From Dillenia suffruticosa (Eukaryota > Streptophyta > Magnoliopsida > Dilleniales > Dilleniaceae): 64,000 nt of DNA. A program made the translations under genes and the position numbers. The notes under the pieces are model-generated. The model was not told the origin of the DNA. It saw only the letters and a program-made list of their open reading frames with translations, and searched no databases. Positions 7,106 through 61,331 of this stretch are shown here, in pieces (positions within the stretch are counted from its first letter, which is position 1; each line of letters begins with the position of its first letter). The stretch is from the NCBI GenBank assembly GCA_033439265.1, contig JAVTVX010000020.1, positions 17,130,001 to 17,194,000 of the forward strand, in the 5' to 3' direction.

Positions 7106-7485
7106 CTATTTAATGTAAACTATCAAGCAGTTACTAATAAATCTTCAAAATACAAACTCTACAGATGACCCCCAATATCATGATATTACACCATACTAAT
7201 CAAATGTATGTATATACAAAGACTTTAGAACTTACTGTTTTAGGCTTAAAGGTGTTATGGATTTGTAGGATTCAATACCTTTTGGCCTCAAACTAGCCGC
7301 GACTAAACCAAAAAAAAAAAACAAAGATTTTTGATTGCCATCAAGTAATCACTCATCAAGTGACACTCACTTAAAAAGTTCAACGGTTAGCTACTTAATG
7401 ACATATTTCTAACTTAGTCATCATCAATCATAGAATACTTATATTATCACTTTCAAATAACCAATGAAAAGATTAGGAGAGGTAC
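7106..7485 (-). other. Element A: decayed gag-pro intron
   Basis: On the minus strand the gag frame ends N-P-D-V-V-T and is followed by ACAG|GTACC at 7486/7485. The protease frame resumes after AAATAG|GTATG at 7106/7105. Removing 7106-7485 (380 bp) gives Val-Val-Thr-Gly-Met-Met-Lys, the same junction codon (G|GT) as in elements B, C and D; a 1-bp A insertion just downstream then shifts the frame. It is longer than in the other three, and the hairpin seen in them was not clearly found. Confidence 0.5.
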
Positions 7486-8564: not shown

Positions 8565-11021
8565 TGTCACGCCCCGAACCGAGATCGTGAACAGCCGCCC
8601 GTTATCCTGAATGCCGGCTGTATTTTTGCAGAAAATCGGGCAGAACCTTCCCATATTTCGGAGGTTTCCCAAGTACAATTTACCATGTATAAAACACAAT
8701 TATCCTGTATTAAAATCAAATGGTCATCCCGGCCTCTCCAAAATCGACCGATCTCACAGCCGACATCTAGATAACGCAAGGCTATAAAAATTTCCAATAA
8801 CCTAGCCACAGACCTCTACTGCCATGCCCTCGTCAAAGGCATGGACAGCCGGCAGTCGCCCCTCCTGTGATTTAGAGGAGGCACCGAGCGATCCTAGAGG
8901 GCACTTCTAAGACTTGACACAACTCCAAGTACTTACACAATGAACCAGAAATACCTCAATGTAATGTTATGCAACGACATGTCCATATTTATACAGTCAT
9001 CCTAGAATTATACAATAGTCGTCTATCGATCTCATAATACATATACATCACCAATACAATTACTAACTCACGAAATTTCAGCGGAAATATACAATAACTC
9101 CTCAGATCTAGATCAAATCTCCCAATGATACTGAGCGTCCTAAAAGCAACGCTACTTGTCAAATACTATCTCTGAAACAAAAAGGGAAATGAGGGGTGAG
9201 TACTCAGGAAAGAATACTCAGTGAGTGAGTGGGTCAATGCAATCGTCAAATATGGAGTGTGAAGCTGGAGTGTCAAAACACAAGTATACAAATCATATTT
9301 CACATCATCATGCTTTTCATTTCAACAATATGTCATTTGCATGCATTATCAAATCAAATATGCATCCAAAGCACTGTCATTAAAATCATAGAGCTGCCAG
9401 TTGAAAATGTCCTGGCAGAGGTCTACCGCGACCTATGACAGGCGCACCGGGGGTGTTATATGCAAGTTTATTTAAAGTGCTTTCTACCCCAGCGTTGGCG
9501 ACGAACCTCGTCCAGGTGCTAGACTTGGAGAGGATATCAAAATCCAAATCCAAATTCTCCCCCTTTCGGGTTCAACCTGACTAGTACCGTGTCGATAATC
9601 AAATCACGACAACTCATGGGATACCCTAGGCCTAGGCATATCCGGACGCCACCAAAGCGTCTCTCACGGTGTCCTTCGTAGCTACGGAACAATACAATCC
9701 AAAGCCCTCAAGGCTAAAATCAATATCGCATAAAAAATGTGCCGAAATCAGGTTTAAAAACCAAATTCAACATCTAGCATAAAATGGCACATTATACATT
9801 TCAACCACATGGATGCATAATTTCATAATTCAACACAGTTTTTGGACACTCCATCGGTTCACAAAAATCAATTTTAAAAACAGTCAAAACATTTCAAGCA
9901 TACGACAAATCATGTTCATTCATCAAAATGTTGTAAAACAGAGTTTACATATTAAACAAAAGCATTGAAATAAATCTCACTCACAGTTTTTGGGGAGGAT
10001 AGCGCACTCCCCAATAAAACCACAATACGTAAAGCAATGCTCCCCTCAATCGAATCACCAAAATAGCTAACCTAATCAATTATCACGATTTTCATCAGAT
10101 TTTGACTATTGTCAGGGTTTATCATTTTCCTTAAATTCGTACAAACCCTAAATTCCTCAATTTATAAACATATTCCAATGTCATCAATTTCATTCTATTT
10201 ATAAGTAAATAACAAAATCAAAATCAATCTTAATTCGAATCTAAAACCAACTAATACTACCTAATTTGACAAAATTTATCCAAAGGTTGAAGAGATTTCA
10301 TTTCTCTCACCTAGGGTTTCTCGAATCTCGGATCTAGCTTTCGTTCGCCCCTTGGTTTGGTCTAAAACCTTCGCAGAGGCTCACGGATTGTCACGGGCCG
10401 TCGCGGGCTAGCGGGCTGGCGGGCTGGCGGGTCTGCGGGCCTGATGGGTCTGGTGGGCCGCGGGCCGGACTGGGCCGCAGTGGCTAGGGCTTGCGCTCGT
10501 GAGCTGGATCGAGCGCTCGAGCAATGGGTCGCGCGTTGGAGTGCTCGCGCTTGTGCTAGGGCGCGCTCGAGCAATAGATCGCGCGCTGGAGTGCGCGCTG
10601 GCTCGTGCTGGGGCGTGCTGGAGGCGCGCAAGGGCTCGGCAGAGGCGCGCAAGGGTGCGCTGGTGCTCGTGTAGGAGCGTGCAGAGGCGCGCTGGGGTCG
10701 CTCGCTGCTCGCGCGCTGGAGGTCGCGCACTGCTCGTGCTGGGCTGGCGCTAGCTCGCGCTGGGCTCGTTCTGGCTCGTGCGCTGTTGCGCGAAAGAGAG
10801 CGCAGTGGCGCTCGTGCAGGGAGGAGCTGCAGCGGCTCGCTCGCGGGAGGGAGGAGCTGCGGTGGCTGGGTGTGGTGGTGACCGGCGGTGCTGGCGGCGG
10901 CAGTGGGAGAGGAAGAGACGGAGTGAGAGAGAGAGAGGGAAGAGAGAGAGGGAGAGAGAGAGAGAGAGAGGGGGGGAAAAAGAAGAAAATTAGGGCTTTA
11001 AGCCCTAATTTTAAATTTCCC

Positions 11022-14100: not shown

Positions 14101-14501
14101 CCTCCAAAATTGAAATGACACAACGGGGTAAAACTCTCCTTTCGTCCTCAAAAATTAACACTGGCTGATCGGGTTTTCGAAACTCCACCTACTTTTTAAA
14201 GCAGTCAACAGAAGCTCGATGCATATGTAGCCAATCCATCCCCAAGATGGCATCAAAATCAGTCATGGCGAGGGGGATTAGATCTGCTTTCAGCACTGTA
14301 TCCCCAACTTTGATCTCACATTCTCTATACACCGTGTCGCGCACAATCTGCTCACCCAGAGGAGTGATGACCAATAGCTCTTCGTCCAATGGTGAGAGAT
14401 CGGCCTGTCAGAATGCCAGAAGAATTGATCGCTCACATACGAATAATTAGACCCCGTGTCAATAAGGATACGAGCATCTATTCCGAAGATAGGTAGAGTA
14501 C
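11114..14501 (-). pseudogene. pol: Element B pol (protease to chromodomain-like end), broken
   Basis: The order is that of a Tekay/Del gypsy element. Protease: [19 protein letters not shown] at about 14490-14420. RT: about 13990-13430 with [20 protein letters not shown] and [17 protein letters not shown]. RNase H: 13070-12771 ([20 protein letters not shown]). Integrase: 12600-11650 with C-x2-C zinc residues, DFVVGLPR and [15 protein letters not shown]. The tail ends HPQLFSV at 11114. Frameshifts and stops interrupt it repeatedly; several stops sit where element C has Trp or Gln (for example near 12773 and 13335), as expected from C-to-T changes. Confidence 0.9.
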
Positions 14502-14747
14502 CTATCATTGAACAAAATGCACATAAACTTAAATTGATTTCAAACTTAATATGTATATATATATGTCAAAATAGTTGAGTCGCTAAGGCCTCTACAACTT
14601 CAGTGTACAAAGATGTCAGAATAGTATCATGTCGACAAAAGGGAACACAACATAAAATACCTATACAACTGATACAATGCTGACATCCTCAAAAGAAGTG
14701 AAAATACGAATAGAGATCCTATTCTACAGGATCAGAAGGAGGAGTAC
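14502..14747 (-). other. Element B: candidate gag-pro intron
   Basis: Minus-strand donor ATCATCATGG|GTACTCC at 14748/14747 and acceptor TTCAATGATAG|GTACTCTACC at 14502/14501. Joining gives Ile-Ile-Met-Gly-Thr-Leu-Pro-Ile-Phe-Gly, a continuous Gag-protease frame. Without splicing the Gag frame ends 26 bases further on at 14719-14721. A hairpin (AGTTG, bulged T, AG pairing with CTCAACT) at 14571-14600 lies about 70 nt before the acceptor, followed by a TA tract. Confidence 0.65.
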
Positions 14748-16491: not shown

Positions 16492-16689
16492 TGTCACACC
16501 CCGAACCGGGATCGTGAACAGCTGCCCGTTATCCTGAATACCGGCTGTATTTTTACAGAAAATCGGACAGAACCTCCCCATATTTTGGAGGTTTCCCAAG
16601 TACAATTTACCCTGTATAAAACACAATCATCCTGTATTAAAATCAAATGGTCATCCCGGCCTCTCCAAAATCGACCGATCTCACAGCCG
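16492..16689 (-). repeat. Element B 5' LTR, truncated to 198 bp
   Basis: From TGTCACACCCC it matches the first part of the LTR at 8565 (TATTTTTACAGAAAATCGG, AAATCGACCGATCTCACAG) almost base for base, then breaks off at CAGCCG and passes directly into the gag of element A. About 2.3 kb of LTR is missing, so B has lost its own promoter region and no target duplication can be identified. Confidence 0.85.
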
Positions 16690-17185: not shown

Positions 17186-19489
17186 TATCATACTCCGACT
17201 CTCAAATTGAAAACGCAACAGCTACCATATAACCTCAAAATACAGGTAAACTTTACTCATACACAAGGTACCACAAGACATTTATAGATATTCATTCATT
17301 TTCGAAAAAAAAAAAATTCAACAAATCCCAATAAGTCAACATGTATTCATCACACAAATAAAGAATCAGTCTGATCCGTACTTGTTCAAAACATGTATGC
17401 ATAAGGCCATCCCATCTATCTGTAATCCAATCACATGCATAAGACTAGTTCGGCCGTCAATATCCAATCATATATATCAAATATAAAATAAGTTCATATT
17501 CAAGAGATCAAAACCAAATCCAACGAAAATAATTGACAAGTAAAGTTTTTGAGAAAGTAGAAAAAAATAATGCTCTCAATTTAAATTCACATAATCCAAT
17601 AGAATTTAATTATCAAGAAAAATCAAAATATAGAAATAGTCACTAACATTCACCTCCGTCTGAGCCTATAATACCTCAAAAATAATCAAAAACCAATACC
17701 CGAAAGAGTTATCAAAATATTTCCCCTTCGGTTAAAAATAAAAACTAACCTCCAAACTAAACGTTTTTTGTAAAATTGAAATGAGAGGAATGAGTATAAA
17801 CAATACTCAATGAGTGAAATAATTTGTATACGATGAATGAGGAGTGGGTTAGGATATATTAAATAATATTCCAAAAAAATCATTTTCATCATATTCAATA
17901 TCATAAATGTTCTGCACAAATATCAAGATTTCCCAACTAAATCTAGATATCATAATAAAATAAATTTTATGCATCCAAATCATATCATAATTTTCAAACA
18001 AAAAACGGGGATTGCCAAAATATTTTGTCTAACAATAGTTTACCGTGACTAATGACGAATCCGCTAAAAGGTTTTCATACATTTCACATTTATCAAGTGT
18101 CTCTAATCTTGGCGTTGGCTCAGAACCTTCTTGGCGGTGCAACCAAGTCTGCTCGATATGACAAAAGAGGTATCTTCCAGTCTCGACTAACCTCTCTCTC
18201 TAATAAAACTCTAATCACATTGCTCTATCAAGCCACACCGTGATAAGGAATGACTATAGTCACTAATAGGGGTTCAAGCTCACATCTCAAGCCAAATGTG
18301 CCAAATTTATTTTAACTATTTCTCAAATCAAGTCATACTCAATATGTACATTGCATAAAATATGGTACATTATCCATTTTTAATAATTTGAATACATATA
18401 TCAAATTTATATATAAGGACATTCTACATAAAATATTTCAAAATTCATTTTAAAATCATTTAAAAAAATCAAATAAAATATTTTATTCATTTAAAATATA
18501 ATATAAAATTCATTCACCTCTTGGGAGAGTCAACATTCACAATCCATAATCTAAAGTTAAATTAATCTTTTCTAAACTTTTAATTATCTCAACCTAAAAT
18601 ACTAAATACCATTTTACCATTAATCATAAATTACATTTAGTTTTAGTTGATTTTTTTTCCAAATTTTGCTAACTCTAGATTTCTAATATCATCAAAATAA
18701 CATTTAAATTCATCTAATAAATATCATAGACTTAAGAAAATAATTTTTCATTGAACATTTTTCTCAATTTTATCACTATGCAAACTCTAAGTTTTTAAAA
18801 TTTATCAATCTATTATCTAATTTTATCAAATCATATCATCAATTTATGAAAATAATTTTTCTTTCAATATTTTCCCAAATTTTAACAATATATATACACT
18901 CTAAGTTTAAATCCCTAAACTTTATTTTTCCAATCTCAAAATAAAGTTTATATAATAGAAAAATGGACTCAAATTTAAGATGATGGAAATAAAATTATCT
19001 TATTTGAACCACCAATTTGTCTCTTAATCACATCACCTTCAAACCCTAAATTTTTTTCTCTACAAAATCTCAAATCTCAACATAAATCCAAAATTTATAT
19101 AAGGATAATTAAAACTCAAGTTTAGGAAAGAGTATTACCTCTATTGAAACCACCAATTTCATTTATTGTTGAATCACTTCAAGCCCAAACTTTTTCTCTA
19201 TCTAGGAAAAACTTGAATCTCTCTCTAAATTCAACCTTTTAGGGATTTTTTTGGAGAGTTTGGAGTTTAAATCTATCGATTGATCAAATTTGGTTGGAGA
19301 GAAAAGAGAGAGGAAGATAGAGGGCAACAGAGAAGAGAGGGGGTGCAGAGAAGAGAGGGTGAGAGAGAAGAGGGGTCTTGGGTGAAAGAAAAAGAGAGAG
19401 TGAGGGAGAGGGAGAATAAGTTTTCTTTTGACTTTTCTTTTCCCCCTTTTTCTTGTTTCTTTCCTTTTTTTGTCTCATTCAGGGTTACA
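17186..19489 (-). repeat. 5' LTR of gypsy element A
   Basis: Full-length partner of 1371-3715, starting TATCATACTCC (the canonical TG mutated to TA) and ending CAGGGTTACA. It includes the GA-rich stretch at 19293-19415. No clean 5-bp target duplication is visible: TAAAA on the left and TAGAA on the right. Confidence 0.85.
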
Positions 19490-20341: not shown

Positions 20342-22158
20342 CTGTAAGAACAAAGGAATTAAATATTTTCTTTCAAAAGAAGTACTTTTTTCTTCAGTAG
20401 GAAAATATATTTCGTTCACATAAGAGGACTGGAGAGGTGAACTTCTGAAAGAACTACACAGACGGGATGTCTACAAAATCTGCTACATCTACATCCCAGA
20501 ACAAAGATTTTGAGTAGAACCAATGGTAAAGATTTAAAGAGTTCTTATAAGAGCTCGATCTCACTTTTGGAGTCAATATGGCATCAAGAAACAAAAGAAA
20601 AACACAGATATCAACATTGTCCTCCTTATCTACAAAATCGCAACATATTTCCATGAGTTTTGGATTAATTTCTTCATTTTGCTTAAAAATCCATCCTCTC
20701 ACATGCACTCTTTTGTGATCTCTGCTTCCCTGCTTATATGATGATCTAAATCCTACAAATGTAATCAGGGAGTGGCATGACTTATCGTGTAAAGATTTTC
20801 ACGGCTATAACTTTCCTGGGGAATTCTCTTTCTATCATACAATAACATTCTAGTTAAACTCTTGGAAAGAACATTTTCCTTCTTAAAATAATGTGTCACA
20901 AACTATATAGAGATTAAGAGCATAGCATGTTTCAATTCTCAAGGTAAAATTGCGATAAAGACCGGTCATAAGTGAGTCGAGTGAATTTTACCCATTTTAA
21001 ATTGGTTGCTGCAACTAATAAGCAATATATCATTGGCAACTTAATTTATCATGTCCAGATCCAGACCTTGGTTTGGGAGATTGATCTTGAAAGGAGGTTT
21101 TATAACGGAAATACAGAATTAGAACCAGAAATTGATGTTATAAGGACTCTTTTCAGAACCCTATATATGTATTCATGATTTAAAACCAAGGACACATTAT
21201 AAAGAAAGGCAGCACTCGTTGAACGCTAGCTGGGGCATGTGTCAGTATGCCACGCGGCAGATCCAATTCTCATCACTCTTTTAAGCATTGGACACTTCTA
21301 AGACACTTGCTTGACACTCTATAGATGCTTTACATTATTGATTAATAGATGTATTATTTAATATATTTAGAAGGTTCTCTTGTTACTACATAAATTGCTT
21401 ATCCTGAATTTGCTATATATAGGCAGAACTTATTACTTTGAATAACATGCATGCACACTTCTGCTGTGTTCTTGCAATGTATGTATTCTTCTTCTTTTTT
21501 TTTTTTTTGAAATTATTATTATTATTTAAGTGCCCATCTTGATGTATCTATGTCTGTTGTTCATAAGTGAGAGTACAAAGATTATCCCAAAATTCTCCTG
21601 GTTGTAAGAAGAAAATACAAAATCAATAAGTTACTTTAAAGCCATGGCATTTGACAGGAGAGAGAGTAAAAGGAAGCATTTTATGGCCCTAATCATTTGA
21701 TTTCTGCACCAGATAAGAGGATGTCTAGCCCATCACTTACATGGAAACCATGGTCTGGGAAATTATCCACCTTAGAATGGTTACACCATTCTGTATTCTA
21801 GAAAGGGAGACAGCTATAGCAACTTTATATTTACAAGAGAAGTAATTCACTGTTTTTGGTCACTTTGAATGGGATCTTTGATGTAGGGAAAAGGCCAGGA
21901 AACCAAAATTAAAAGATTAAATTAACTGAGATTCAAAATAAATTGAAACTGGAACTGAAAAAATAGGTTTAGGATTTGAAACCTCTCACTTGCAATTCTA
22001 AAAACAATACCCTAATAATGTGATTACTATTGTCCTCTTGCTAATTAGAACAAATCCTAATTCTAATCTGAAAACCTTCCAATTTCTTAAAAATTTCTAA
22101 ATAGTTAAATAGAATAGAAAAAAAAATAAACAAGAAATAACATAAATTTTTTAAATAC

Positions 22159-24764
22159 TGTAACACTGCACACAAAAAAAAAAAAAAAAAAAAAAAAGAA
22201 GGGGGCTTAAAGCCCTAATTTCCTTTTCTTTCTCACACTCTTTTATCTCTCTCTCTCTCTCTCTCTCTCCCTCCCTCTTTCCCTCTTTCTCCCTTTCTCT
22301 TCTCCGCCGTGGCCTCTCTCCCGCCACCGCACGCCGCCCACTGCTCCACCTTCCTCCCGCGATCGCGGGAGCTGCAGCGCCTCCCGCGAGCAGCTCCTTC
22401 CTCCACGCGAGCGCTGCCTCCTAGCGCGCGAGCCCAGCACGCCACAGCTCGCGATCTCCCGCGAGCCAGCGCGCGAGCCAGCGCGCCACAGCTCGCGATC
22501 TCCCGCGAGCCAGCGTCCCGCGAGCCAGCGCGCTACCCCTGCTCGACCCAGCTCGCGACTCATCGCGAGCCAGCGCGCGACCCAGCTCGCGACCCAGCGC
22601 GAGCTAGCGCACGAGCCAGCGCGCGACCCAGCCCGCGTCCCAGCACGAGCCAGCGCGCGACCCAGCTCGCGACCCAGCGCGAGCTAGCGCGCGAGCCAGC
22701 GCGCGACCCAGCTCGCGACCCAGCGCGAGCCAGCGCGCGACCCAGCTCGTGACCTAGAGCGAGCCCTAGCCCGTGAGCGGGCCAGCCCACCAGCGGCCCA
22801 AGGCCCAGTCCAGCCGCGGCCCACTGCATCCCGCGAAGCCCGCTGCGGCCAGCAAGCCGGGCTGAGAGCCCGTGAGCCACCAGCGGGCCAGCCCGCTAGC
22901 AGCCAGCCCACCGGCCCGCGAGCCCGTGACGGCCCGCGAGCCCGCGACCGGCTTTCCCCTTCGAGAGCTCACCTGCATCTTCTGTACGGCAGGTAACGAC
23001 TGTATTGATTGAAGTTCTATGGTTTGCTGTTAGAAATTTAGTGGTTTCTAATACATCTGAAGTTTGGGAAATATTACAGGTTTTAAACCAACCCGACGGG
23101 CGAACGACAGCTAGGTCTGACACCCGAGGAACCCTAGGTGAGAGATGAATAAATTTTATTGATAGAATCCCTTATTAGGGTTTTAATCGCTATAAATTTG
23201 ACGATTTGATTAGGTTTGTCTTTTGGAGAGTCGTTGAAAAATAGGGAGTGACCACCCTCCCTAGATAGGTGAGTGGGACTCTAATCTCTTGCATAAAATA
23301 GTAAAATGTATTTTCTGTCGCATTTTCGATGAAACATGCTTTGATATGCATTTGTTGACGTGTGATATTAAATTTAGAAATCTGTTTTGTGATTTTTGGA
23401 GTGTCTTGAATTATATTTACAATCACTATGCATCCATGGTTTGAAATGAAACAATAATTGTGCCATTACTTGAAAATGTATAAATTTCATTTTATACCGT
23501 TGCATTGATATGCTATTTTGAAATGAATTGAAGAGACGTATTGGCACGCAAATTTAAAATGTTTTTGATGAACTACGTGGGTTGGATGCCCACTAGTTAC
23601 GTGATGATGTGATGATACTTGTGGGACGTTGTGCCCTGGGACGTTGTGCCCTTGTGATACTATGGGACGTTGTGCCCTTGTGATATTATGATGATTCCGT
23701 AGCTACGAAGGGCGTTTGTAGAGGCACGGGTTGCCCGGATACGCTTCTGCAGGAGGTATCCGCAAACGTCATTTATTCTAAAGACTATAGGCGCGGCCGG
23801 TTGAACCCACGTAGGGGGAGGACGTGTGTGACGCCACCGTCTAGCACCGGGCGGGGTCCTATACACGTTGATGAGTTGGCCCCAGCGAGCTCATGGCCAA
23901 CGTCGGGGTAGAGAGCGTTTTAAAGTCTATGCATAATAAAAACCCCCGACGCGCCTGTCCTTGGTCACGGTTGACCTTTGCCAGGACTATTTTTGGCTCG
24001 CTCTGACATTACTTGATTTTAAATGGATGCATACATGCTTGCTATCGCGTGTTTGATTAAATGATTTCAAATTGATAAATATATCATGTTTTGTCGCGAA
24101 ATGTAAATTTTTGTTTCAAATGATGTTATTTGACACTCCAATTGTTCACCTATGCTATTTATGCTGGATATTATCCCCCTCACTCACTGAGTATCTTCCC
24201 ATGATACTCACCCCTCTATTTTCTCTCCTCAGACAGGTTTATTGTGATAGAGCGGCGTTACAGGCTCTAGTGCGGATTTGTTGTTCTGACGGTGAGATTT
24301 ATTTCTAATTTAGTTTCGACCCTGCGAGGTCTTGACATTGAGGTCCGTAGTTGGCCATGTACTTATTTTGGGATGACTGTATAGTTTAACTCTCATATTT
24401 CATTTGCATTGAGGCGATTGTACGTACTTGAACGTTACTTGGGAAATGTGATATATATTGTATAAACTTAGGTCCGCTCGATATAGCGGCTGCTCATGCT
24501 CTAGTTGGGCATGACAGTAGAGGTCTGTGGCTAGGTTTGTTTATAGCCTTGCGTTGTTCTGAATGTTGGCTGTGGTGTTTGTTGATTTTGGAGAGGCCGG
24601 GATGGCCATTTGTGTATTGTACAGGGTGATTTGGATTATACAGGTATAATTGTACATGGGAAACCTCCGATTTATGGGGAGGTTCTGCCCAATTTTCTGT
24701 AAAAATACAGCCGGCATTCAGGGGCAACGGGCGGCTGTTCACGATCCCGGTTTGGGGCGTGACA
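22159..24764 (+). repeat. 5' LTR of element C
   Basis: Begins TGTAACACTG and ends GGGCGTGACA. Parts in order: an A run (22174-22198), a palindromic GGGCTTAAAGCCC near 22204, a CT microsatellite (22246-22269), a CpG-rich block of short repeats built on CAGCTCGCGACC and GCGCGAGC (22320-22950), an AT-rich stretch with a TATAAAT at 23191-23197, the palindrome CCGTAGCTACG at 23698-23708, and the TGAGTATC/GATACTCA hairpin at 24188-24210. Which part is U3, R or U5 cannot be fixed without a transcript. The open frames in the GC-rich block on both strands are compositional. Confidence 0.97.
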
Positions 24765-25057
24765 GTTCTATTGGTATCAGAGCGTCTAGGTTTGAGAAAA
24801 GATAAAAGTTTTCCCAAGTATACGCAAAGTTCTCAATGCATTAGAGAGTTTCATACAGTCATTTAAAATCCCGTACTTGGTCATAGGCATATAAGTTCGC
24901 CTATTTTATGGAGTTGGATACATAACGCATCTAACTCATTACTTCGCATTCGAATGTTTTAAATCATAGTTCATTTATTTTTAGGGGGTTAGTTACGGAG
25001 CAACTAACCCTAAATCTTGATTTCTATCCGTTGACAATGTATTTTTTTCGCAGAATT
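24765..25057 (+). promoter_or_regulatory. Element C primer-binding site and leader
   Basis: TGGTATCAGAGC at 24772-24783, seven bases after the LTR, is complementary to the 3' end of initiator Met-tRNA, the usual minus-strand primer of plant gypsy elements. The leader runs to the gag start. Its end, a T run followed by CGCAG just before AATTATGCC, looks like a splice acceptor and recurs in element B. Confidence 0.9.
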
Positions 25058-26500
25058 ATGCCACCTAGACGTGGTAGGAGAGGTGCTAGATTCGCCTCAC
25101 TTGAGGGTCTTACAGTGCCTGATACACCTAGGGCACCTGAGGCGCCACGAGTACCAGAGGTTGCTTCCTCTACTCGAGCACGCTCACCAGCGCCACCCCC
25201 AGCACCTCCACCGGCTGCTACAGCCGAGATTCCTCCACCACCACTCGATGCCTTGAGACAATGGCAGGAGTGGTGCAGTAGATATGGGGCGCAGATGCCA
25301 CCACCTTCACTACAGACTCCAGCGACCGCACCTGCGGCCGTACCTGCTCCTTCGGCACCGATTCCTCCTTCGGTGGCCGGCCCTTCCGTGTCTACTCCGA
25401 CCGACGAGACATCGGCTACTTTGAGGCGCATCCACGAGCTCACTCAGTTGGTGAAAGAGTCACGGCAGCTCGGATGCACAGACTTTTCGGGATCCAGTGA
25501 TGCAGTAGCGGCAAAACACTGGATCAACAGGATTCGTAGGATCCTTACGGATTTGGGGTTGTCAGAGGAGCTCAGATTGCGAGTTGCTGAGAGACTCCTC
25601 GACGGAGATGCCCTCTCGTGGTGGGAGGCTATCCGTGATAGTGCCACACAGACCCTGCGGTGGGAGGACTTTCTACGAGAGTTCGACCGCAGGTATTTTA
25701 CCCCGTTCCAGCAGGACCGGATGAGGACGGAGTTCCTGCACTTACGTCAGGGGACGAGGTCAGTTTCAGAGTACGAGGCTGAGCTTAGACGACTAGTGGC
25801 CTTTGTCCCCGATATGGCTACACCAGTTCAGTTGAGGTTCAAGTTTGAAGATGGCCTCCAACTTAGCATCAGGAAATATATGACGGTGACTCCCTCTTTT
25901 ACACTATCGGAGGTGATTGATTCAGCGTATCGGGCGGAGGAGATCGTCCGAGCGGAGGCGAGACAGAGGGAGAGTCACCAGAAGAGGAAGACTGGGTCAC
26001 AGGGTGGACAGTCTTCGAAGAGGGGTAGAGGTTTTGGATATCCCGGAGGTTTTTCTAGCTTCAGACCAGCAGCACCGGGACAGGGACCTCGACCACAGGG
26101 CTTTGGGGCACCAGCCCCTAGTGTCTCTACACAGTCTACTACACAGAGACCGCCCTTCTGCCGTAGATGCAACTATCACCATGCCTTTGGGGCATGTAGA
26201 GCACCAGTTACTTGCTTCCAGTGTGGGAAGCAAGGGCACGTTAGGAGTGTCTGTCCCGATTTAGGTCGGGGAGGATCGACTTTACAGAGTCGTACTGGTA
26301 CGTCTGGTACAGGCCAGCAGGGGGCACCTGCGCACTCAGCTCTTACCGCTCCCCGGACTGCAGCCGGGAGTAATACAGTGCCAGGATCGTCGCGACAGCA
26401 GCCTAGGGCCCAGGCTCGTGTGTTTGCGATGACACAGGAGGACGCACAGGCAAACCCTGATGTTATTATGGGTAATCCTCCCGCAGACCCCTCAGTGTAG
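25058..26500 (+). CDS. gag: Element C Gag (unspliced form), 480 residues
   Basis: Structural protein that forms the particle and packages the RNA. I chose the ATG at 25058 (Met-Pro-Pro-Arg-Arg-Gly) because the same start is found in element B; an in-frame ATG at 25031 would add nine residues. A Pro/Ala-rich N-terminus (about residues 1-120) is followed by the capsid core with KHWINRIRRILTDLGL, WWEAI, FDRRYFTPFQQDRM and FKFEDGL, a basic Gly/Ser linker, and a CCHC zinc knuckle CFQCGKQGHVRSVC near residue 390. The last 10 residues and the stop (26498-26500) lie beyond the candidate donor at 26471/26472, so only unspliced RNA would use them. Confidence 0.93.
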   Translation: MPPRRGRRGARFASLEGLTVPDTPRAPEAPRVPEVASSTRARSPAPPPAPPPAATAEIPPPPLDALRQWQEWCSRYGAQMPPPSLQTPATAPAAVPAPSAPIPPSVAGPSVSTPTDETSATLRRIHELTQLVKESRQLGCTDFSGSSDAVAAKHWINRIRRILTDLGLSEELRLRVAERLLDGDALSWWEAIRDSATQTLRWEDFLREFDRRYFTPFQQDRMRTEFLHLRQGTRSVSEYEAELRRLVAFVPDMATPVQLRFKFEDGLQLSIRKYMTVTPSFTLSEVIDSAYRAEEIVRAEARQRESHQKRKTGSQGGQSSKRGRGFGYPGGFSSFRPAAPGQGPRPQGFGAPAPSVSTQSTTQRPPFCRRCNYHHAFGACRAPVTCFQCGKQGHVRSVCPDLGRGGSTLQSRTGTSGTGQQGAPAHSALTAPRTAAGSNTVPGSSRQQPRAQARVFAMTQEDAQANPDVIMGNPPADPSV

Positions 26501-26662
26501 TACTTTTGTGTACTTTCTGTATGAGCTTATTGTATATCATGATGTCGATGTACAGTTTTGACTAGTTAAAGCTTTAGAAGCTTAACTAGTTTGATATATA
26601 TATATATTCGTTCACTTTTTCTTCGCATTTTAAATGCCGTTGATCTTCTTTCTTACTTTTAG
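26472..26662 (+). other. Element C: candidate gag-pro intron, 191 bp
   Basis: Donor ATTATGG|GTAATC and acceptor TTCTTACTTTTAG|GTACC with a good pyrimidine tract. Joining gives Val-Ile-Met-Gly-Thr-Met-Arg-Ile-Phe-Gly and one continuous Gag-Pol frame (Gag is in frame 2, Pol in frame 1). Inside, ACTAGTTAAAGCTT at 26561-26574 pairs with AAGCTTAACTAGT at 26578-26590, leaving one bulged A, 72 nt before the acceptor. A TA tract follows the hairpin. Confidence 0.72.
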
Positions 26663-29600
26663 GTACCATGCGAATATTCGGTATTGATGCCCGTATTCTC
26701 ATAGATACTGGGTCAAATTTTTCCTATGTAAGCGATACGTTCGCTTGTCATTCTGATAGACCTCTCTCGCTACTTGATGCGGAGATTCTGGTAGTCACTC
26801 CTCTTGACAAGCATACCATTCGAGATACAGTCTATAGGGGCCGTGAGGTAGGAATTGGGGAGACAGTATTAGAGGCAGATCTGATTCCGCTCCCTATCAC
26901 GGATTTCGATGCCATCCTAGGGATGGATTGGCTGAGTTTACATCGGGCTTCCGTGGATTGTTTCACGAAGGAGGTTGAGTTTAGGAGGTCCGAGCAGCCA
27001 CCGTTAGTATTCCGGGGCGAGAGACGAGTGTTGCCCCGCAGTATTATCTCTGTTATGAAGGCCAGACGTTTGGTACGCCATGGTTGTGCGGCTTATCTGG
27101 CTTATGTTGTCGACACCACTGTTGAGGGACCGAGGCTTGAAGATGTCCCTGTGGTGCAAGAATTTTTAGATGTGTTCCCCGAGGAGCTTCCCGGATTACC
27201 ACCAGTTCGGGAGTTCGATTTCGAGATTGATTTAGTACCGGGGACCAATCCTATTTCTATTCCGCCATACAGAATGGCGCCTGCTGAACTGAGAGAGCTT
27301 AAAACTCAGTTACAGGAACTTCTGGACAAGGGGTTTATTCGTCCGAGCACCTCACCTTGGGGCGCTCCGGTACTGTTTGTAAAGAAGAAGGATGGTACAT
27401 TTCGGCTTTGTGTGGATTACAGGCAATTGAACAAAGCCACCATCAAGAACCGATATCCCCTGCCTCGTATCGATGACTTGTTTGATCAGCTGTAGGGAGC
27501 TAAGGTTTTCTCTAAGATTGATCTCCGTTCGGGTTATCATCAGTTGAGGATTCAGGCCGAAGATGTGCCCAAGACAGCTTTTCGCACCCGATACGGCCAT
27601 TACGAGTTTCTAGTCATGCCGTTTGGGCTGACTAATGCCCCAGCTGCTTTTATGGATCTGATGAACCGAGTTTTTCACGACTATTTGGATCGGTTCGTCA
27701 TCGTATTCATCGATGACATCTTGATATATTCACGGAGCGATGAAGATCATGTTCAGCACCTTCGGGTGGTATTACAGATACTCCGTGAGAAGCAGCTATA
27801 TGCCAAATTCTCAAAATGTGAGTTTTGGCTAAGACAAATTGGATTCTTGGGGCACATTGTCTCCGCGGAAGGTATTTATGTTGATCCGCGGAAGGTTGAG
27901 GCTATAGTGAAGTGGGAGCAGCCACAAACAGTTACCGAGATTCGTAGTTTTCTCGGTTTGGCCGGGTATTACCGCAGATTTGTAGAAGGATTCTCCCGGA
28001 TAGCTGCTCCGTTGTCGAGATTGACTCAAAAGGGGGTCAAGTTTGTTTGGGATGACCGTTGTGAGGCAAGTTTTCAGGAGCTCAAACAACGGTTAACATC
28101 CGCTCCTATTTTAGCCCTTCCCACTAGTAGTCGGGAGTATACAGTGTACAGTGATGCTAGCCGACAGGGATTGGGTTGTGTTCTGATGCAGGATGGTCGG
28201 GTTATTGCGTATGCCTCGCGACAGCTAAAGAAACACGAGGTTAACTACCCGACACATGATTTAGAGTTGGCAGCCATAGTCTTCGCGTTGAAGATATGGC
28301 GGCATTATCTTTATGGGGTAACCTGCAGGGTATTTACCGACCACAGGAGTTTGAAATATCTGTTTACCCAAAAAGAGCTGAATTTAAGACAGAGGAGATG
28401 GTTGGAGTTATTGAAAGACTATGATCTCATTATTGACTATCATTCAGGCAAGGCAAACGTTGTAGCAGATGGCTTGAGTCGGAAGTCAGCATCATCCTCA
28501 CAGTCGACAGAGAAAGCCTACCTTTCTTGTTTAGTGGGACTCCGAGCCTTAGGAGTCAGTTTGACTAACGATGATCAGGGAGGCTTATTAGTCAGATTTG
28601 AGGTCAGGCCGACTTTGTTCGACCGTATCAGGGAGCTCCAGAGTACGGATGAAGAGATCCAGGGTATTACAGATAGAGTCCGCAGAGCTGAGGGCGGAGA
28701 TTTCAGAGTCCGTGATGATGGACTCGTCGTATTCAGAGATAGAGTGTGTGTTCCGGCCGATGGTGATCTTCGACGTGCTATCCTTGAGGAAGCACATTCT
28801 TCTGCATATGCTATGCATCCCGGAGGTACGAAGATGTATCGGACCATCAGAGGTAGCTACTGGTGGTCAGGCATGAAGAGGGATATAGCAGAGTTTGTGG
28901 CACGATGCTTGGTGTGCCAGCAGGTAAAGGCCGAACATCAGCGTCCAGCGGGCACACTGCAGCCTCTTCCTATTCCTGAGTGGAAATGGGAGCATATTAC
29001 TATGGATTTCGTGATGGGGTTACCGCGGACTTCTACAAGGCATGATGCGATTTGGGTGATTGTCGATCGACTCACCAAATCTGCACATTTTATCCCTATT
29101 CGCAGTGACTATTCCTTAGAGGCGTTGTCACGCCTCTACATTGATACCATAGTTCGGCTTCACGGGGTACCTGTGTCGATTGTTTCAGATAGGGACCCCA
29201 GGTTCACATCTAGGTTTTGGCCCAAATTGCAGGAGGCATTGGGTACTAGATTGAATTTCAGTACGGCATATCACCCTCAGACGGACGGCCAGTCTGAGAG
29301 GACCATTCAGACCCTTGAGGACATGCTGAGAGCATGTGTGATGGATTTCCGGGGTAGTTGGGATCGGCACCTTCCACTAGTCGAGTTCGCATATAATAAC
29401 AGTTATCAAGCCAGTATAGGGATGCCCCCGTATGAGGCACTATATGGCAGGAAGTGCCGCACCCCGATATGCTGGGATGAGGTCGGAGAGCGACGTCTCA
29501 ACAGCGTTGAGTTGATTGAACAAACAAAGGATAAAGTTAAGGTTATCCGTGAGCGGATGAAAGCCGCCCAGGACAGACAGAAGACGTATGCTGATCGTAG

Positions 29601-30045
29601 GCGGCGACCTCTTGAGTTTGCTACGGGAGATATGGTTTTCTTGAGAATATCTCCCTGGAAGGGAGTTATACGGTTCAGGCAGCGGGGCAAGTTGAGCCCT
29701 AGATATATTGGGCCCTTCCGTATCCTTGAGAGGGTCGGGAGTGTGGCATATAGATTGGAGCTGCCAGATGAACTATCCCGTATTCACGACGTATTCCATG
29801 TCTCAGTACTCAGGAAATACTTGACCGATCCTTCTCATGTACTTGAGCCTCCACCTCTTGAGTTGCGAGAGGACCTTAGCATTCCAATTCAGCCTGTGAC
29901 TATTCTAGATCGGCAGGTTAGAAAGCTGCGGAGTAAGGAAATTTCATTAGTCAAAGTTTTATGGAGAAGTGATCAGGTCAAGGAGGAGACCTGGGAGCCC
30001 GAGGAAGCTATGAGGAGTCAATACCCCCATTTATTTACAGTGTAG
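26663..30045 (+). pseudogene. pol: Element C Pol: protease, RT, RNase H, integrase, chromodomain-like tail; one nonsense codon
   Basis: Aspartic protease motif [17 protein letters not shown] at about 26683-26733. RT spans about 27290-27960 with FIDDILIYS at 27706-27732. RNase H begins at [16 protein letters not shown] (about 28147) with [11 protein letters not shown]. Integrase has HPGGTKMY ... CLVCQQ zinc residues (28815-28926), the first catalytic Asp in [21 protein letters not shown] and the Glu motif [15 protein letters not shown]. The tail [13 protein letters not shown] ... [17 protein letters not shown] is the chromodomain-like end of Tekay/Del elements. A TAG at 27493-27495 stands in RT where elements A, B and D have CAG (Gln); it is a single base change that should abolish Pol. 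Otherwise the frame is open to the stop at 30045. Confidence 0.95.
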
Positions 30046-30093: not shown

Positions 30094-32699
30094 TGTAACA
30101 CTGCACACACAAAAAAAAAAAAAAAAAAAAAAGAAGGGGGCTTAAAGCCCTAATTTCCTTTTCTTTCTCACACTCTTTTATCTCTCTCTCTCTCTCTCTC
30201 TCTCCCTCCCTCTTTCCCTCTTTCTCCCTTTCTCTTCTCCGCCGTGGCCTCTCTCCCGCCACCGCACGCCGCCCACTGCTCCACCTTCCTCCCGCGATCG
30301 CGGCAGCTGCAGCGCCTCCCGCGAGCAGCTCCTTCCTCCACGCGAGCGCTGCCTCCTAGCGCGCGAGCCCAGCACGCCACAGCTCGCGATCTCCCGCGAG
30401 CCAGCGCGCGAGCCAGCGCGCCACAGCTCGCGATCTCCCGCGAGCCAGCGTCCCGCGAGCCAGCGCGCTACCCCTGCTCGACCCAGCTCGCGACTCATCG
30501 CGAGCCAGCGCGCGACCCAGCTCGCGACCCAGCGCGAGCTAGCGCACGAGCCAGCGCGCGACCCAGCCCGCGTCCCAGCACGAGCCAGCGCGCGACCCAG
30601 CTCGCGACCCAGCGCGAGCTAGCGCGCGAGCCAGCGCGCGACCCAGCTCGCGACCCAGCGCGAGCCAGCGCGCGACCCAGCTCGTGACCTAGAGCGAGCC
30701 CTAGCCCGTGAGCGGGCCAGCCCACCAGCGGCCCAAGGCCCAGTCCAGCCGCGGCCCACTGCATCCCGCAAAGCCCGCTGCGGCCAGCAAGCCGGGCTGA
30801 GAGCCCGTGAGCCACCAGCGGGCCAGCCCGCTAGCAGCCAGCCCACCGGCCCGCGAGCCCGTGACGGCCCGCGAGCCCGCGACCGGCTTTCCCCTTCGAG
30901 AGCTCACCTGCATCTTCTGTACGGCAGGTAACGACTGTATTGATTGAAGTTCTATGGTTTGCTGTTAGAAATTTAGTGGTTTCTAATACATCTGAAGTTT
31001 GGGAAATATTACAGGTTTTAAACCAACCCGACGGGCGAACGACAGCTAGGTCTGACACCCGAGGAACCCTAGGTGAGAGATGAATAAATTTTATTAATAG
31101 AATCCCTTATTAGGGTTTTAATCGCTATAAATTTGACGATTTGATTAGGTTTGTCTTTTGGAGAGTCGTTGAAAAATAGGGAGTGACCACCCTCCCTAGA
31201 TAGGTGAGTGGGACTCTAATCTCTTGCATAAAATAGTAAAATGTATTTTCTGTCGCATTTTCGATGAAACATGCTTTGATATGCATTTGTTGACGTGTGA
31301 TATTAAATTTAGAAATCTGTTTTGTGATTTTTGGAGTGTCTTGAATTATATTTACAATCACTATGCATCCATGGTTTGAAATGAAACAATAATTGTGCCA
31401 TTACTTGAAAATGTATAAATTTCATTTTATACCGTTGCATTGATATGCTATTTTGAAATGAATTGAAGAGACGTATTGGCACGCAAATTTAAAATGTTTT
31501 TGATGAACTACGTGGGTTGGATGCCCACTAGTTACGTGATGATGTGATGATACTTGTGGGACGTTGTGCCCTGGGACGTTGTGCCCTTGTGATACTATGG
31601 GACGTTGTGCTCTTGTGATATTATGATGATTCCGTAGCTACGAAGGGCGTTTGTAGAGGCACAGGTTGCCCGGATACGCTTCTGCAGGAGGTATCCGCAA
31701 ACGTCATTTATTCTAAAGGCTATAGGCGCGGCCGGTTGAACCCACGTAGGGGGAGGACGTGTGTGACGCCACCGTCTAGCACCGGGCGGGGTCCTATACA
31801 CGTTGATGAGTTGGCCCCAGCGAGCTCATGGCCAACGTCGGGGTAGAGAGCGTTTTAAAGTCTATGCATAATAAAAACCCCCGACGCGCCTGTCCTTGGT
31901 CACGGTTGACCTTTGCCAGGACTATTTTTGGCTCGCTCTGACATTACTTGATTTTAAATGGATGCATACATGCTTGCTATCGCGTGTTTGATTAAATGAT
32001 TTCAAATTGATAAATATATCATGTTTTGTCGCGAAATGTAAATTTTTGTTTCAAATGATGTTATTTGACACTCCAATTGTTCACCTATGCTATTTATGCT
32101 GGATATTATCCCCCTCACTCACTGAGTATCTTCCCATGATACTCACCCCTCTATTTTCTCTCCTCAGACAGGTTTATTGTGATAGAGCGGCGTTACAGGC
32201 TCTAGTGCGGATTTGTTGTTCTGACGGTGAGATTTATTTCTAATTTAGTTTCGACCCTGCGAGGTCTTGACATTGAGGTCCGTAGTTGGCCATGTACTTA
32301 TTTTGGGATGACTGTATAGTTTAACTCTCATATTTCATTTGCATTGAGGCGATTGTACGTACTTGAACGTTACTTGGGAAATGTGATATATATTGTATAA
32401 ACTTAGGTCCGCTCGATATAGCGGCTGCTCATGCTCTAGTTGGGCATGACAGTAGAGGTCTGTGGCTAGGTTTGTTTATAGCCTTGCGTTGTTCTGAATG
32501 TTGGCTGTGGTGTTTGTTGATTTTGGAGAGGCCGGGATGGCCATTTGTGTATTGTACAGGGTGATTTGGATTATACAGGTATAATTGTACATGGGAAACC
32601 TCCGATTTATGGGGAGGTTCTGCCCAATTTTCTGTAAAAATACAGCCTGCATTCAGGGGCAACGGGCGGCTGTTCACGATCCCGGTTTGGGGCGTGACA
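30094..32699 (+). repeat. 3' LTR of element C
   Basis: Same length as the 5' LTR. Differences found by eye include A/C near the A run, G/C at 22364 versus 30304-30305, and single changes corresponding to about 22832, 23157, 23666, 23721, 23784 and 24716 of the 5' copy. That is about 0.3 percent divergence, pointing to a very recent insertion. Confidence 0.97.
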
Positions 32700-32783
32700 A
32701 ATACAAAACCTAAATAAAGAAGAAAAACTAGAAAAAAAAATAAATAAAAAAAATCTACTACAATCTATCTCATTTGAAGATGC

Positions 32784-36976: not shown

Positions 36977-39900
36977 TCACAATCTACGAAAACCCATTTC
37001 CATTACATGTTTGACAAATATATTAGGAGGTACTATTTTTGTTAAGAGGTCTGCACTATTTGTCTAGTAGATATGTGTTCCATTCCAACTTCCTTTTTTT
37101 CAATTGTATCTTTAATAAAGTTATATTTTATCCCTATATGGTTGGTCTTTTCATGATATTTTGGATCCTTAATATATGCCAAGCCTACCATACTATCACA
37201 ACAAATAGTAACCGACATATTATTAGGTGTTACTATATTGAAATATATGGAAGGAAGCAACCAAACCAGAAGGCTTCTTACACAACAACAACTCCTGCTA
37301 CAAATTTAGCCTCCATGGTTGACAATGTTGTACAAGTTTGCTTCTTGCTATTTCAAGAGATAGCTCCATTATAAAGCAAAAAAATATAACCTAATGTAGA
37401 CTTGTACACATCTTGATCCCCTCCCCAATCTGCATCAGTGTATCCTTTTAACTCTAAGTTACCAACTTGGTAACATAACTAACAATCTTTCATTCCCTTA
37501 CGATATCAAAAAATTCTTTTGATACACTTCCAATGTTCTATTCCAAAATTGGATGAGTAAGGGGTTAATAGACTAACAGATGGACTAATATCTGGCCTTG
37601 TACACAATATTGTATACATGAGGCTTCTAATGGCATTCAGATATCGAACCATTTCCATTTCTTTCTTCCCTTCGGGAGTGCTCGGATGCATTACTATACT
37701 AATATTACTATTTTGTGCAATATAAGCATTCATCGGTTTTGAGTGTAGCATATTAAAACATTCAAGAATCTTATCAATATAAGATTCTTGAGATAATACC
37801 AATAGCCTCTTCAACCTATCTCTCATAATCTTAATTCCAAGAATTTGATCGTTTCACCTAAATGTTTCATTTCAAATTTAGATAGCCATGTTTTGACATC
37901 ATTTACAAAACTCAAATTATTATTAACTAATAGTATGTCATCAACATATACTGACATGATTATAAACTTGTTCTTAGATTTTAGGACATACATACAATGG
38001 TCTTCATTTGGCATCTTGAATCCAAAAATCAATGCAGATTTAAGAAACTTCAAATATCATTGTCTTGAAACTTGTTTCATTCTTAAGTCTACATACTTTA
38101 TTTTCTTGACCTTTTTTAGCAAAACGATATGGTTGTTGCATGTATATCTCTTCACTCAAATTGCATTGAAGAAGGTTATATTTACATCCATTTGATGTAA
38201 TTTCAAATCCAATTTTGCAACCATTGCTAGTAGCAATCTGATGGAGGCAATCCTCACAATATGTGAGAAGGTATCTTCGTAATCAATACCCTCCTCTTGT
38301 ATATAACCCTTGGCAACCCATCCTTTTTTGTACCTTTCAATGGTACCTTCTACATTCTTTTTTATCTTGAGAACCCATTTATTTCCAATCGTCTTTCGAT
38401 CTTGAGGAAGATCAACCAAGTCCCATACTTGATTGTCATGCACCGATTTCAATTTATCTTCCATTGCAATTATCCATTTGTCATAGTCTGGTCTATTTAT
38501 TGCTTCTATGATGTTCCATGGTTCATCTTCTAAATTCGCAATGAGGCTTTCTCTATGATACATACTCTACCATTTTGGTGGTCTGGATTCTCTTCGTGAA
38601 CATCTAAGTGCAAAAATGTGAACTTGTTCTTCTTTTTGACTTTACACATTTGCATTTTCATGAAGTTCCTATGGAGAATCTTCATCCTCAACTTGTTGAT
38701 TCGTCTGTTGATCATCAAGATGAACTTTATCATCTCTGTCATTATGATCTTCGACTTGGCTCCTTCTTAAACCAACAATGATCGCAGGAGGCTCTATCAC
38801 TTCAATATTATTATTTGAACCAAATTCAATAACTTCTGATATTAAATGAGACTTGTCCCTATTTCCTTTCTCAAGAAACTCATTTTCTAAGAAAGTTTAT
38901 CCCTAGAATCGAATTCAACATTTCTACCCTTATTTTTCAAATCAATAAATACATAACCTTTAGAGAGTTCTGATTATAGAAGAAAAACACATTTCTTTCC
39001 TTTTGGCCCTAATTTCTAAATTCATGATTTAGATTATGGACATAGGCTACACAACCCCATGGTTTAAGATAACTTAAACTTGGAAGTTGTCTGATCCATA
39101 ATTTGTAAGAAGTAAACTCAATAGATTTGGATGGCACCCTATTTAAACTGTGAACAACCGTGAGTAATGTATCTCCTAAAAGGAAATGTCCAAATTGGTC
39201 TATGCCATCATGGATTTCACCATGTCTAAAAGAGTTCTATTTTTTCTCTCCACCACACCATTCTATTCAGTTGTATAAGAAATAGTTAATTGTCTTGCTA
39301 TTTCTTTTTTCATCACACCATTTCTTGAATTCATTTGACATATACTCTTCACCCCTATCAGTCTGTAATGACTTGATGGTTCTTTTTAATTGGTTTTCAA
39401 CCAATTGTGTATATATTACAAAGCAATATAATGTTTCACTTTTGTGTTTTAACAAATACACATAGATGAATCGAGTATAGTTATCTATGAATGTAATAAA
39501 ATATCTAAACCGTTGCCTATATGTTACACTCATAGGTTTGCATATATCAGAATGAATTAAATATAGTGAATATTGACTTTTTCCCCGTTTTAAATGGTTT
39601 CTTGGTTGTCTTTTTTTTTTGGTACCTTTACTTGGCCACTACCCAATATTCAGAGTTTTGTCCCAATTAATCTGGATCAACCACTAAGGGTCCACTTTGT
39701 GGGGGCGAGTCTCTCAACATTGTTTTTTTCATGCTCAGAGATATTCGAACTCCCGATCTATTTAAAGGACGAAAATGTCCATCTCACCTATGCCAACAAA
39801 TGTTGGTTGTCTTTCCAGTTATGTAATATTCACATATTGAATTATTCACATTTGATAGAGAATCGAGCAAACCCCATTTGGCTAGTTTTTTCGCTTTCTC

Positions 39901-47009: not shown

Positions 47010-47192
47010 CTAATGTGAGAAAATAAAAGGATCAGTTAATAAATATGAAAGAAAACACATGCCCACATATATATACATATCAAAATATATGTACAAACCA
47101 ACATAGTTAAGCCTCTAAGACTTCAACTAGTGATGGTTCTCAAAGAAAGTACATGGAAAATCTCTAAATATGGGGATCAGTGGGAGGAGCAC
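47010..47192 (-). other. Element D: candidate gag-pro intron, 183 bp
   Basis: Minus-strand donor GTGATTATTG|GTGCTCC at 47193/47192 and acceptor TTCTCACATTAG|GTGTTTTG at 47010/47009. Joining gives Val-Ile-Ile-Gly-Val-Leu-Lys-Ile. The unspliced Gag frame stops at 47164-47166. The bulged hairpin (TAGTTGA, bulged A, GTCT pairing with AGGC and TTAACTA) lies at 47101-47131, about 90 nt before the acceptor. Confidence 0.66.
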
Positions 47193-52203: not shown

Positions 52204-53263
52204 CATTATTTGTCGGAATTCTACAAGTCCCAATTCCTTTCGCCTCAATCTTCGAGTTGCCACCAACTTAAACCCATTTGGCCCCCACTGGCATCTTTCG
52301 AAAATATGTGAATAGATAACAATCCCATAAGAAATGGTCGATTGCACCTGAATTAATAACCTAGTCAGAGTTAGATCCTACCATGAAAGTACACAACAAA
52401 ACATGTACAAATGAGGTAAAAAAGGTATATACCCTTTTGGGCTCTTTGCAATCTTTTGCAAAGTGTCCTTTCTTGTCGCAATTGAAACACTTGACGTTTA
52501 TCATGTTTTTGACTTGACTTTTCCCATTCTTCTTGAACTTCTTGGATTTATTTTTGAAATCCTTTTTCTTGAATTCCCTTTTTATCTTTCCCAATATAAA
52601 AACATTCTCAGCAACATATGCTTTCAAGGAATTCTTGATATTTATGATTTCTACTTTCAAAAACAAATGTCGTGCGATATCATCAAAGGTCTTGATTTTC
52701 ACATTGTAGCGTAAATTGACCTTCATCAATTGCTACTCATCATCTAGTAAAGATTGAACAGCTTAAACTTATTGTTCCTTCGTAAGAGCTTGTCCAAATG
52801 ATTTCAAATTTGAGATCATGCATGACATTTCATGCAAATGATGACTCATTTGATGATCATTCTTCTTGGTATAATTCTCAAATCTAAGAATCATCCCTCT
52901 ACGTTTCTCTAAAAAAAATCACCAAACTTCTTCTTCATCGCATCCCATATGGCTTTGGCAGATTGAAGTATGGAAAAATCCACCATTTGCTCGTCAACCA
53001 TCATACTTAACAATATTACATGAGCTAAGGTATCCTTTCTTTTGAAGGTCTCATATGCCCTTTTTTCTTCCGCTGTGGAATCTTGAGTTGGTTCATTAAC
53101 CACTTGAGATATAGTATCGATCAATTTTTACTCAATCAAGATGAATTGAACCTTCTGTTGCCATATGGCATAATTATCTCCATCAAGTTTAATGTCTTTA
53201 TTCAATTCGGCTGCAATGCCCTTTGTGGTTGTTGCTATTTACATCATGCAATTGTGTATCCAT
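52204..53263 (-). pseudogene. gag: Copia gag and start of protease
   Basis: Start codon at 53263 (Met-Asp-Thr-Gln). Gag of the copia UBN2/gag-polypeptide type: EEKRAYETFKRKDTLAHVIL, ILQSAKAIWDAMKKKFGD, later KTFDDIARHLFLKVEI, a Lys-rich linker and the zinc knuckle CFNCDKKGHFAKDC at about 52450-52490. The protease begins V-I-N-S-G-A-I-D-H-F (normally D-S-G-A-T-D-H) near 52340, showing loss of the catalytic Asp, and is cut at 52204 by element D. Frameshifts near 52730 and 52910. Confidence 0.88.
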
Positions 53264-61060: not shown

Positions 61061-61331
61061 CTTGAGGGGGATGTTAAAAAAGAAGACAATCAATCATTCA
61101 AGGCTCAAATCCAAGTCCTTGAATGTCATAATAAAGCCCAATTCATGACTCAAATGGTCTCATCAGTCCAGAATAAAAACAGGCAGTAAGCCGCCCAGAA
61201 AAATTATCGCAGTGTGTTATCCAAAATCTAGGCAAATTACAGCCTACTTTGGTAGCCCATTTCAAGCAGCAAGAAAAGCACAAAAAAAGGCATGGTTGAA
61301 TAGATGAAAGTCTATTAAGAGAGGTCCAAAA
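61061..61331 (+). repeat. Element E polypurine tract and start of 3' LTR
   Basis: CTTGAGGGGGA followed by TGTTAAAAAAG; parallel to 57822-57899 joined to 59046-59230. Stops at 61331 where LTR F begins. Confidence 0.75.

Follow-up and report, generated by a model that had tools for sequence, protein, structure and literature searches.

Two plant Ty3/gypsy elements lend themselves to comparison with the locus described here: Ogre, and CRR, the centromeric chromovirus of rice. Ogre belongs to the OTA/Tat clade and is described from pea and Medicago; its polyprotein region contains an intron between GAG-PROT and RT, which is spliced in part of the transcripts (PMC6317226; this and the other sources are cited for the passages drawn on). 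CRR transcripts are also spliced, with the removal of rt and the creation of two ORFs (PMC3735527). In the passages of PMC6317226 on which we rely, the only elements said to have two ORFs with a longer stretch between them are Bianca and Ogre, and in Bianca, a Ty1/copia element, this stretch averages 172 bp. In EVD/ATCOPIA93 and BARE1, which are Ty1/copia elements as well, shGAG splicing near the gag-protease border distinguishes Gag from Gag-Pol (PMC12786077, PMC8892269, PMC3735527), and intron-retaining EVD RNA of Arabidopsis is largely nuclear (PMC8892269). Other spliced isoforms are reported from sunflower, and in the sections of that study used here the expressed set contains no Tekay member (PMC7730604).

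Here we describe a GT...AG segment between Gag and protease that is shared by four neighboring gypsy elements of one plant genome. The window, that is, the whole stretch of DNA analysed, is 64 kb long (G000:C20:17130001-17194000) and belongs to a genome of 596 Mb in 37 contigs, which was searched for further copies. Several Ty3/gypsy elements lie within the window, and those that carry the segment are named A, B, C and D.

Element C and its surroundings

Element C, on the forward strand, is bounded by a 5' LTR (22159..24764), which starts with TGTAAC and ends with GTGACA, and by the 3' LTR with which it pairs (30094..32699). The LTRs are 99.69% identical over 2606 bp, and C is the youngest of the elements as judged by LTR identity. 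It is flanked by a 5-bp target duplication, AATAC (22154-22158 and 32700-32704). The primer binding site directly after the 5' LTR (24772..24783) is an exact match to TGGTATCAGAGC, which we take to be complementary to tRNA-Met. Both LTRs contain a GC-rich, repeat-like stretch (22309-22752 and 30244-30687). Its 147-codon open frame, in which Ala, Arg, Ser and Pro are frequent, is probably non-coding.

The coding region consists of a gag exon 1 (25058..26471; Retrotrans_gag 1.4e-16, Ty3_capsid 3.2e-10), the putative phase 1 gag-pro intron of 191 bp (26472..26662) and an exon 2 (26663..30045) that encodes protease, RT, RNase H, integrase and a chromodomain-like end. The putative intron is GT...AG-bounded and U-rich, its ends are conserved, and copies without it exist. 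A Pfam search of exon 2 returned RVP_2 (1.9e-22), RVT_1, RT_RNaseH, Integrase_H2C2, rve and Chromo (3e-4). The chromodomain match (PF00385, residues 785-830, E 3e-4) reaches 21.1 bits, short of the curated cut-off (25.1 bits). The domain order, read from Pfam searches on three pieces, is gag, protease, RT, RNase H and integrase, and the Pol of C is up to 74% similar to plant proteins. This order together with the weak chromodomain fits a Tekay/Del-like chromovirus. At the nucleotide level the other elements are related to C to different degrees: identity to it is 76% for B (over 4 kb), 72% for D (over 5 kb) and 65% for A (over 3.3 kb). Exon 2 of C is broken by an in-frame stop in the RT region (27493-27495); C is young by its LTRs, yet this copy is unable to make a whole Pol.

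Other repeats are also found in the window. An LTR-like pair (1488-3715 and 17279-19489), 80% identical, surrounds A and B, and B is apparently nested in A, with LTR-like pieces of its own (8565-8762 and 16492-16689) that are 95% identical. Pieces resembling the end of the C LTR (82%) and the D LTR (73-74%) at 61329-61708 and 61908-62887 are perhaps the remains of another element. On the reverse strand, the open frames at 38156-38563 and 52361-52729 resemble, by eye, a Ty1/copia RT and a copia-type Gag with a CCHC motif.

The segment at the Gag-protease junction

The preliminary description had placed segments with GT at the start and AG at the end between the Gag and protease frames of A, B, C and D, and all four were found where it put them. 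In addition to that of C, these are the candidate introns of A (7106..7485, 380 bp), B (14502..14747, 246 bp) and D (47010..47192, 183 bp), all three on the reverse strand. From the dinucleotide frequencies of the segments, the probability that all four show GT and AG at these positions is approximately 3e-10 if independence is assumed, and the elements are not independent. The claim that the cut falls in one and the same glycine codon also holds. In B, C and D, exon 1 ends after the first base of the codon and the next frame supplies the other two (phase 1), as checked by separate translation of both sides. The phase of the junction glycine in A is the same, but the frame slips shortly downstream; the slip is not present in two A-type relatives, L114 and L115.

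In composition, the segments of B, C and D contain 42-44% T against 29-31% in their flanks, and that of A 39% against 36%. The donor sites of A-D match the plant consensus at 3-6 of 8 positions and are weak. A pyrimidine tract is clear in C and D, and in A and B pyrimidines make up only 55-60% of the acceptor tract. Branch-point-like matches are weak, with none in B.

The interiors of the segments were compared after leaving out the first 32 and the last 15 bases, with 200 dinucleotide shuffles as the null. Those of B, C and D are alike (B-C z 5.3, B-D z 4.0, C-D z 6.3, each equalled by 0 of 200 shuffles), which points to one old, orthologous intron that would be older than the split of the three elements. 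The interior of A compares with that of C at z 3.1, equalled by 4 of 200 shuffles, and shows no likeness to B (181 of 200) or D (20 of 200) in the same comparison. For A, the same site and phase are the main evidence for a shared intron.

Conservation across genomic copies

Conservation of GT and AG in further copies had been named beforehand as a point on which an intron would stand or fall, and both ends are present in all 46 C-type copies and all 27 intron-bearing B-type copies read. The C-type figure combines two samples. With a query that included the C intron, all 30 copies fetched from 40 matches, the window copy included, have GT and AG. A search with exon 1 of an intronless copy gave 39 non-self matches, part of them already read; all 16 further copies taken from these have GT...AG with segments of 189-217 bp. 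A search with exon 1 of B gave 40 matches, the window copy included; 27 of the 30 copies fetched carry the intron, 244-252 bp in length. The D-type copies were found with exon 1 of D, and the intron is present in 11 of the 12 fetched from 39 non-self matches, with GT in 11 of 11 and AG in 9 of 11. The remaining copy, L091 (G000:C20:17944224-17944823), has unrelated sequence from the donor junction on, in place of the intron. Two A-type copies were read from 39 non-self matches; L115 keeps GT and AG, and L114 is without both.

Chance occurrence of GT and AG, considered as a candidate explanation, is ruled out by their conservation in many copies. Within B alone, end conservation is weak evidence, as 153 of 255 intron columns of the B alignment are invariant and four invariant end columns would be expected by chance with a probability of approximately 0.13; the weight comes from the agreement between families and from the intronless copies. 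The lengths of the segment in B- and C-type copies represent all residues modulo 3, and a fixed programmed frameshift or readthrough is thereby ruled out.

Copies lacking exactly the segment

Reverse transcription of spliced RNA leaves copies without the intron. A probe made of 45 bases of both exon edges of C, with at most 3 mismatches, found seven places in the genome, and a reversed-pattern control found none. In all seven of these C-type copies, which are 82-98% identical to C, the exons adjoin at 26471/26663. All seven, the set to which the LTR check was applied, also have long repeats in LTR positions, the best pieces being approximately 83-97% identical. The seven are therefore LTR insertions of different ages. 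Two of them, L032 and L033 (G000:C8, approximately 17 kb apart), are near-identical, by local duplication or because intronless copies are still mobile.

In the B-type family, the segment is absent from three of the 30 copies picked by exon 1 alone. This share refers to the copies fetched, and one more of the 40 matches (C10:5263953) coincides with a match of the B junction probe, which found 38 places (control, 0). Continuous copies had originally been listed among the observations that would speak against an intron. Such copies do exist, but they lack exactly the GT...AG segment and are a minority in the unbiased sample (3 of 30 in B). Mostly being nearest, among the copies sampled, to intron-bearing ones as well, they count for splicing. 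The likeness of the intron in B, C and D marks its absence as derived, and the two families lost it separately.

A short direct repeat is common to the two ends of the segment; it measures 5 bases in A, 7 in B and 4 in both C and D, and in most D-type copies little of it is present. The edges of the loss are thus defined only to within this repeat, and a slippage deletion would yield the same in-frame product. Repeat pairs at least as long and 150-300 bases apart are, however, numerous in approximately 3 kb around the junction, with 36 in B and 1432 in C. When deletions of at least 40 bp relative to the window copies were collected, three of six in 30 B-type copies corresponded to the intron and the other three lay at three other places. 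Among 37 C-type copies seven of ten corresponded to the intron and three lay elsewhere, the seven having been picked by the probe. If one event was inherited within each family, the B evidence alone would be modest. Splicing appears the better reading because the intron was hit in both families and GT...AG is kept in nearly all other copies, and slippage between end repeats is weakened as an explanation of the intronless copies and is the less probable cause.

Number of losses

In the B tree the most parsimonious solution has three changes, and the nearest sampled copies of each intronless copy carry the intron. By the AU test, the intronless copy L077 is marginally rejected as sister of L064 (p 0.045) or of L067 (p 0.026), and grouping L064 with L067 is not rejected (p 0.37). 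Placing all three together gives p 0.056 in the trimmed tree and 0.023 in a longer, less clean alignment. In the C tree, which was built without the 16 intron-bearing copies found by exon 1 (420 bases each), one supported clade unites five of the seven intronless copies, and given this clade the C-type family may have had few losses. The intronless L032 and L033 group with the intron-bearing L015 (p-AU 0.026 against a single clade), a value touched by one badly cut row in the tree, L030 (branch 1.0). They are 99-100% identical to L015 up to the junction; at the beginning of exon 2 the identity is 97%, and L031 is equally close there (shown for L033). L032 and L033 may thus be recombinants with an intronless copy rather than products of a fresh loss.

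Reading frames and the Gag tail

Removal of the segment had been expected to restore one Gag-Pol frame. The phase of the junction fits this expectation, but the window copies are more damaged than had been thought: the Gag frame of B changes approximately ten codons upstream of the junction, and in A and D stops lie shortly before it. Among 30 C-type copies the last 400 Gag codons are open in 13, at least 270 codons of exon 2 are open in 24 and both hold in 11.

Unspliced RNA would extend Gag by a short tail. In C this tail would be NPPADPSV followed by a stop (26472..26500), used only with the intron retained. Gag had been said to end 8-10 codons into the segment, and the stop indeed follows after eight codons beyond the glycine in B, C and D, but only after 14 in A. 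Every one of the 46 C-type copies preserves the tail length and the stop, as do, in the B-type form, all 27 intron-bearing B-type copies. Both features are also kept in nine of 11 D-type copies; the D-type tail pattern matched ten junctions, nine of them with the stop, along with one further match that is not junction-like, and in L086, which is outside the pattern matches, the stop is lost (by eye). An ATG just after the start of exon 2 is present in C and A and absent from B and D, and a conserved protease start codon is ruled out on these grounds.

Relatives in other plants and the ancestral state

Of 120 proteins that resemble the Pol of C, 63 can be aligned with residues 1-130 of exon 2. 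The residue just before the start of exon 2 is glycine in 36 of 38 readable plant proteins, some of which are gene models that possibly hide introns. At the DNA level, L094, a contig of plant-like sequence in the record of a bacterial metagenome-assembled genome, is continuous through the junction and has the glycine. It is one of four plant-like stretches in such records, and the only one with the junction motif. A protein search with Gag gave one match, a Theobroma protein that stops short of this motif, and a search with part of Gag gave eight; a scan of viral contigs found no relative.

The preliminary description had proposed that the intron replaces ribosomal frameshifting. This is doubtful, as relatives in other plants have a continuous Gag-Pro frame and the ancestor was thus likely a single polyprotein. 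The simplest history would be a continuous Gag-Pro frame which an intron then entered at the codon of the junction glycine. In B (reverse strand), the first six bases of the intron, GTACTC, are also the first six bases of exon 2 (14496-14501), a possible trace of a local duplication or a substrate for slippage. Such a repeat would fit an origin of the intron by local duplication, for which it is too short to be proof.

Proposed mechanism and alternatives

The proposal of a spliceable intron is supported by conserved ends, variable length and, in two families, copies without exactly the segment. We think it quite probable that the segment is a GT-AG spliceosomal intron of a Tekay/Del-like group and that it is partly spliced, so that unspliced RNA would be both the genome and the message for Gag, and spliced RNA the message for Gag-Pol. 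Weak donor sites would lead to incomplete splicing. Unspliced RNA would enter the particle as genome and would also yield Gag, extended by the short tail that the intron encodes, and spliced RNA would be translated as Gag-Pol, both as judged from the frames alone. The intron would persist because the packaged RNA is mostly unspliced, and spliced RNA entering particles would give rise to intronless copies, splicing followed by reverse transcription being their simplest cause. From the sequence we infer that the intron has a role in making much Gag and little Gag-Pol. We lean slightly toward the broader view that this group of chromoviruses has exchanged a single Gag-Pol frame for regulated intron retention, by means of one weak intron at the Gag-protease border. 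Besides the end repeats, the clade of five C-type intronless copies and the weak branch-point matches and acceptor tracts, two further observations count against the mechanism. Nuclear retention, as seen in EVD, would leave unspliced RNA poorly suited to Gag translation if it is not exported, and splice dinucleotides have been lost in one of two A-type copies (both GT and AG) and in two of 11 D-type copies (AG).

The intron could be genuine and yet be spliced efficiently and constitutively, with the Gag tail incidental and the ratio of Gag to Gag-Pol set elsewhere, for example by protein processing. That related elements manage with a continuous Gag-Pro frame, that most groups have a single ORF in the account of PMC6317226 and that intronless copies are not rare (38 places matched by the B probe) would all agree with this. 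Near-total splicing, however, would erase the intron fast, and among copies sampled by exon 1 it is kept in 27 of 30 of the B type and 16 of 16 of the C type; as the donors are weak and a stop-ended tail of fixed length is kept besides, we find constitutive splicing distinctly unlikely. The exact position at the Gag-protease border and the conserved short in-frame tail, which are not needed for export alone, also speak against the suggestion that the intron chiefly serves the fate of the RNA (its export, its stability or keeping the Gag-Pol message out of the particle), the protein ratio being a by-product. This suggestion, which we consider unlikely, draws on EVD, where splicing alters nuclear export and translation (PMC8892269), and on BARE, which separates translated and packaged RNA pools (PMC3735527).

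It is very unlikely, in our view, that the segment is an unspliced, untranslated spacer, that the protease and Pol are reached by internal initiation or recoding and that the intronless copies are repeat deletions or a separate lineage. The repeats at the segment ends (7 bases in B, 4 in C), the ATG just after the exon 2 start in C and also in A, and the clustering of five of the seven C-type intronless copies could be taken in its favor. But the ATG is absent from B and D, and a length in all residues modulo 3 leaves no fixed frameshift. Slippage, for which 36 repeat pairs in B and 1432 in C offered the same opportunity, gives no reason why GT...AG and the frame should be matched twice. The B-type intronless copies, moreover, have intron-bearing nearest sampled copies, and the likeness of the B, C and D introns makes absence the derived state.

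If the reading as intron retention is true, the splicing efficiency of the host would set particle stoichiometry, and spliced RNA leaking into particles would keep yielding intronless offspring with a fused frame, of uncertain fitness. To our knowledge, the origin of the Gag excess in plant gypsy elements with one continuous Gag-Pol frame is poorly understood. The present case suggests that an intron at the Gag-protease border can arise and persist in an element with an RNA stage, at which introns should be lost. The natural intron losses seen here are datable. In addition, copies with and without the intron stand at many places in one genome, so that the effect of the intron on copy success is measurable. 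In annotation, such copies may be labeled as broken, having two ORFs out of frame, without being so.

Comparison with known systems

No gag-protease intron in Tekay/Del elements was found in the literature searched, which was covered by titles and the openings of abstracts, with subscription papers mostly outside. Ogre resembles the present elements in having an intron in the polyprotein region, and its partial splicing lets the whole polyprotein be made (PMC6317226); in the present elements partial splicing would be the inferred counterpart. That the Ogre intron lies at a different place was correctly anticipated, as it is found between GAG-PROT and RT and the segment described here between gag and protease. 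The present element is, moreover, chromodomain-like, and the Pfam scan of C gave no second RNase H domain, which is an Ogre trait. Bianca shares two ORFs with a spacer but belongs to the other superfamily, Ty1/copia, and the account cited assigns its spacer no part in splicing (PMC6317226). CRR is similar in that gypsy transcripts are spliced, with the difference that rt is removed there (PMC3735527), whereas here Gag would be joined to protease. EVD and BARE1 differ in that unspliced RNA codes for Gag-Pol and spliced RNA for Gag alone (PMC12786077, PMC8892269, PMC3735527), while the frames here predict the reverse and the domain order is that of gypsy. Tekay/Del-like elements of other plants have a similar Pol and the junction glycine, but their Gag-Pro is continuous, for L094 on the DNA. 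The principle is thus known, and the place of the intron, the clade in which it is found and the genomic record of its loss appear to be new within the literature searched.
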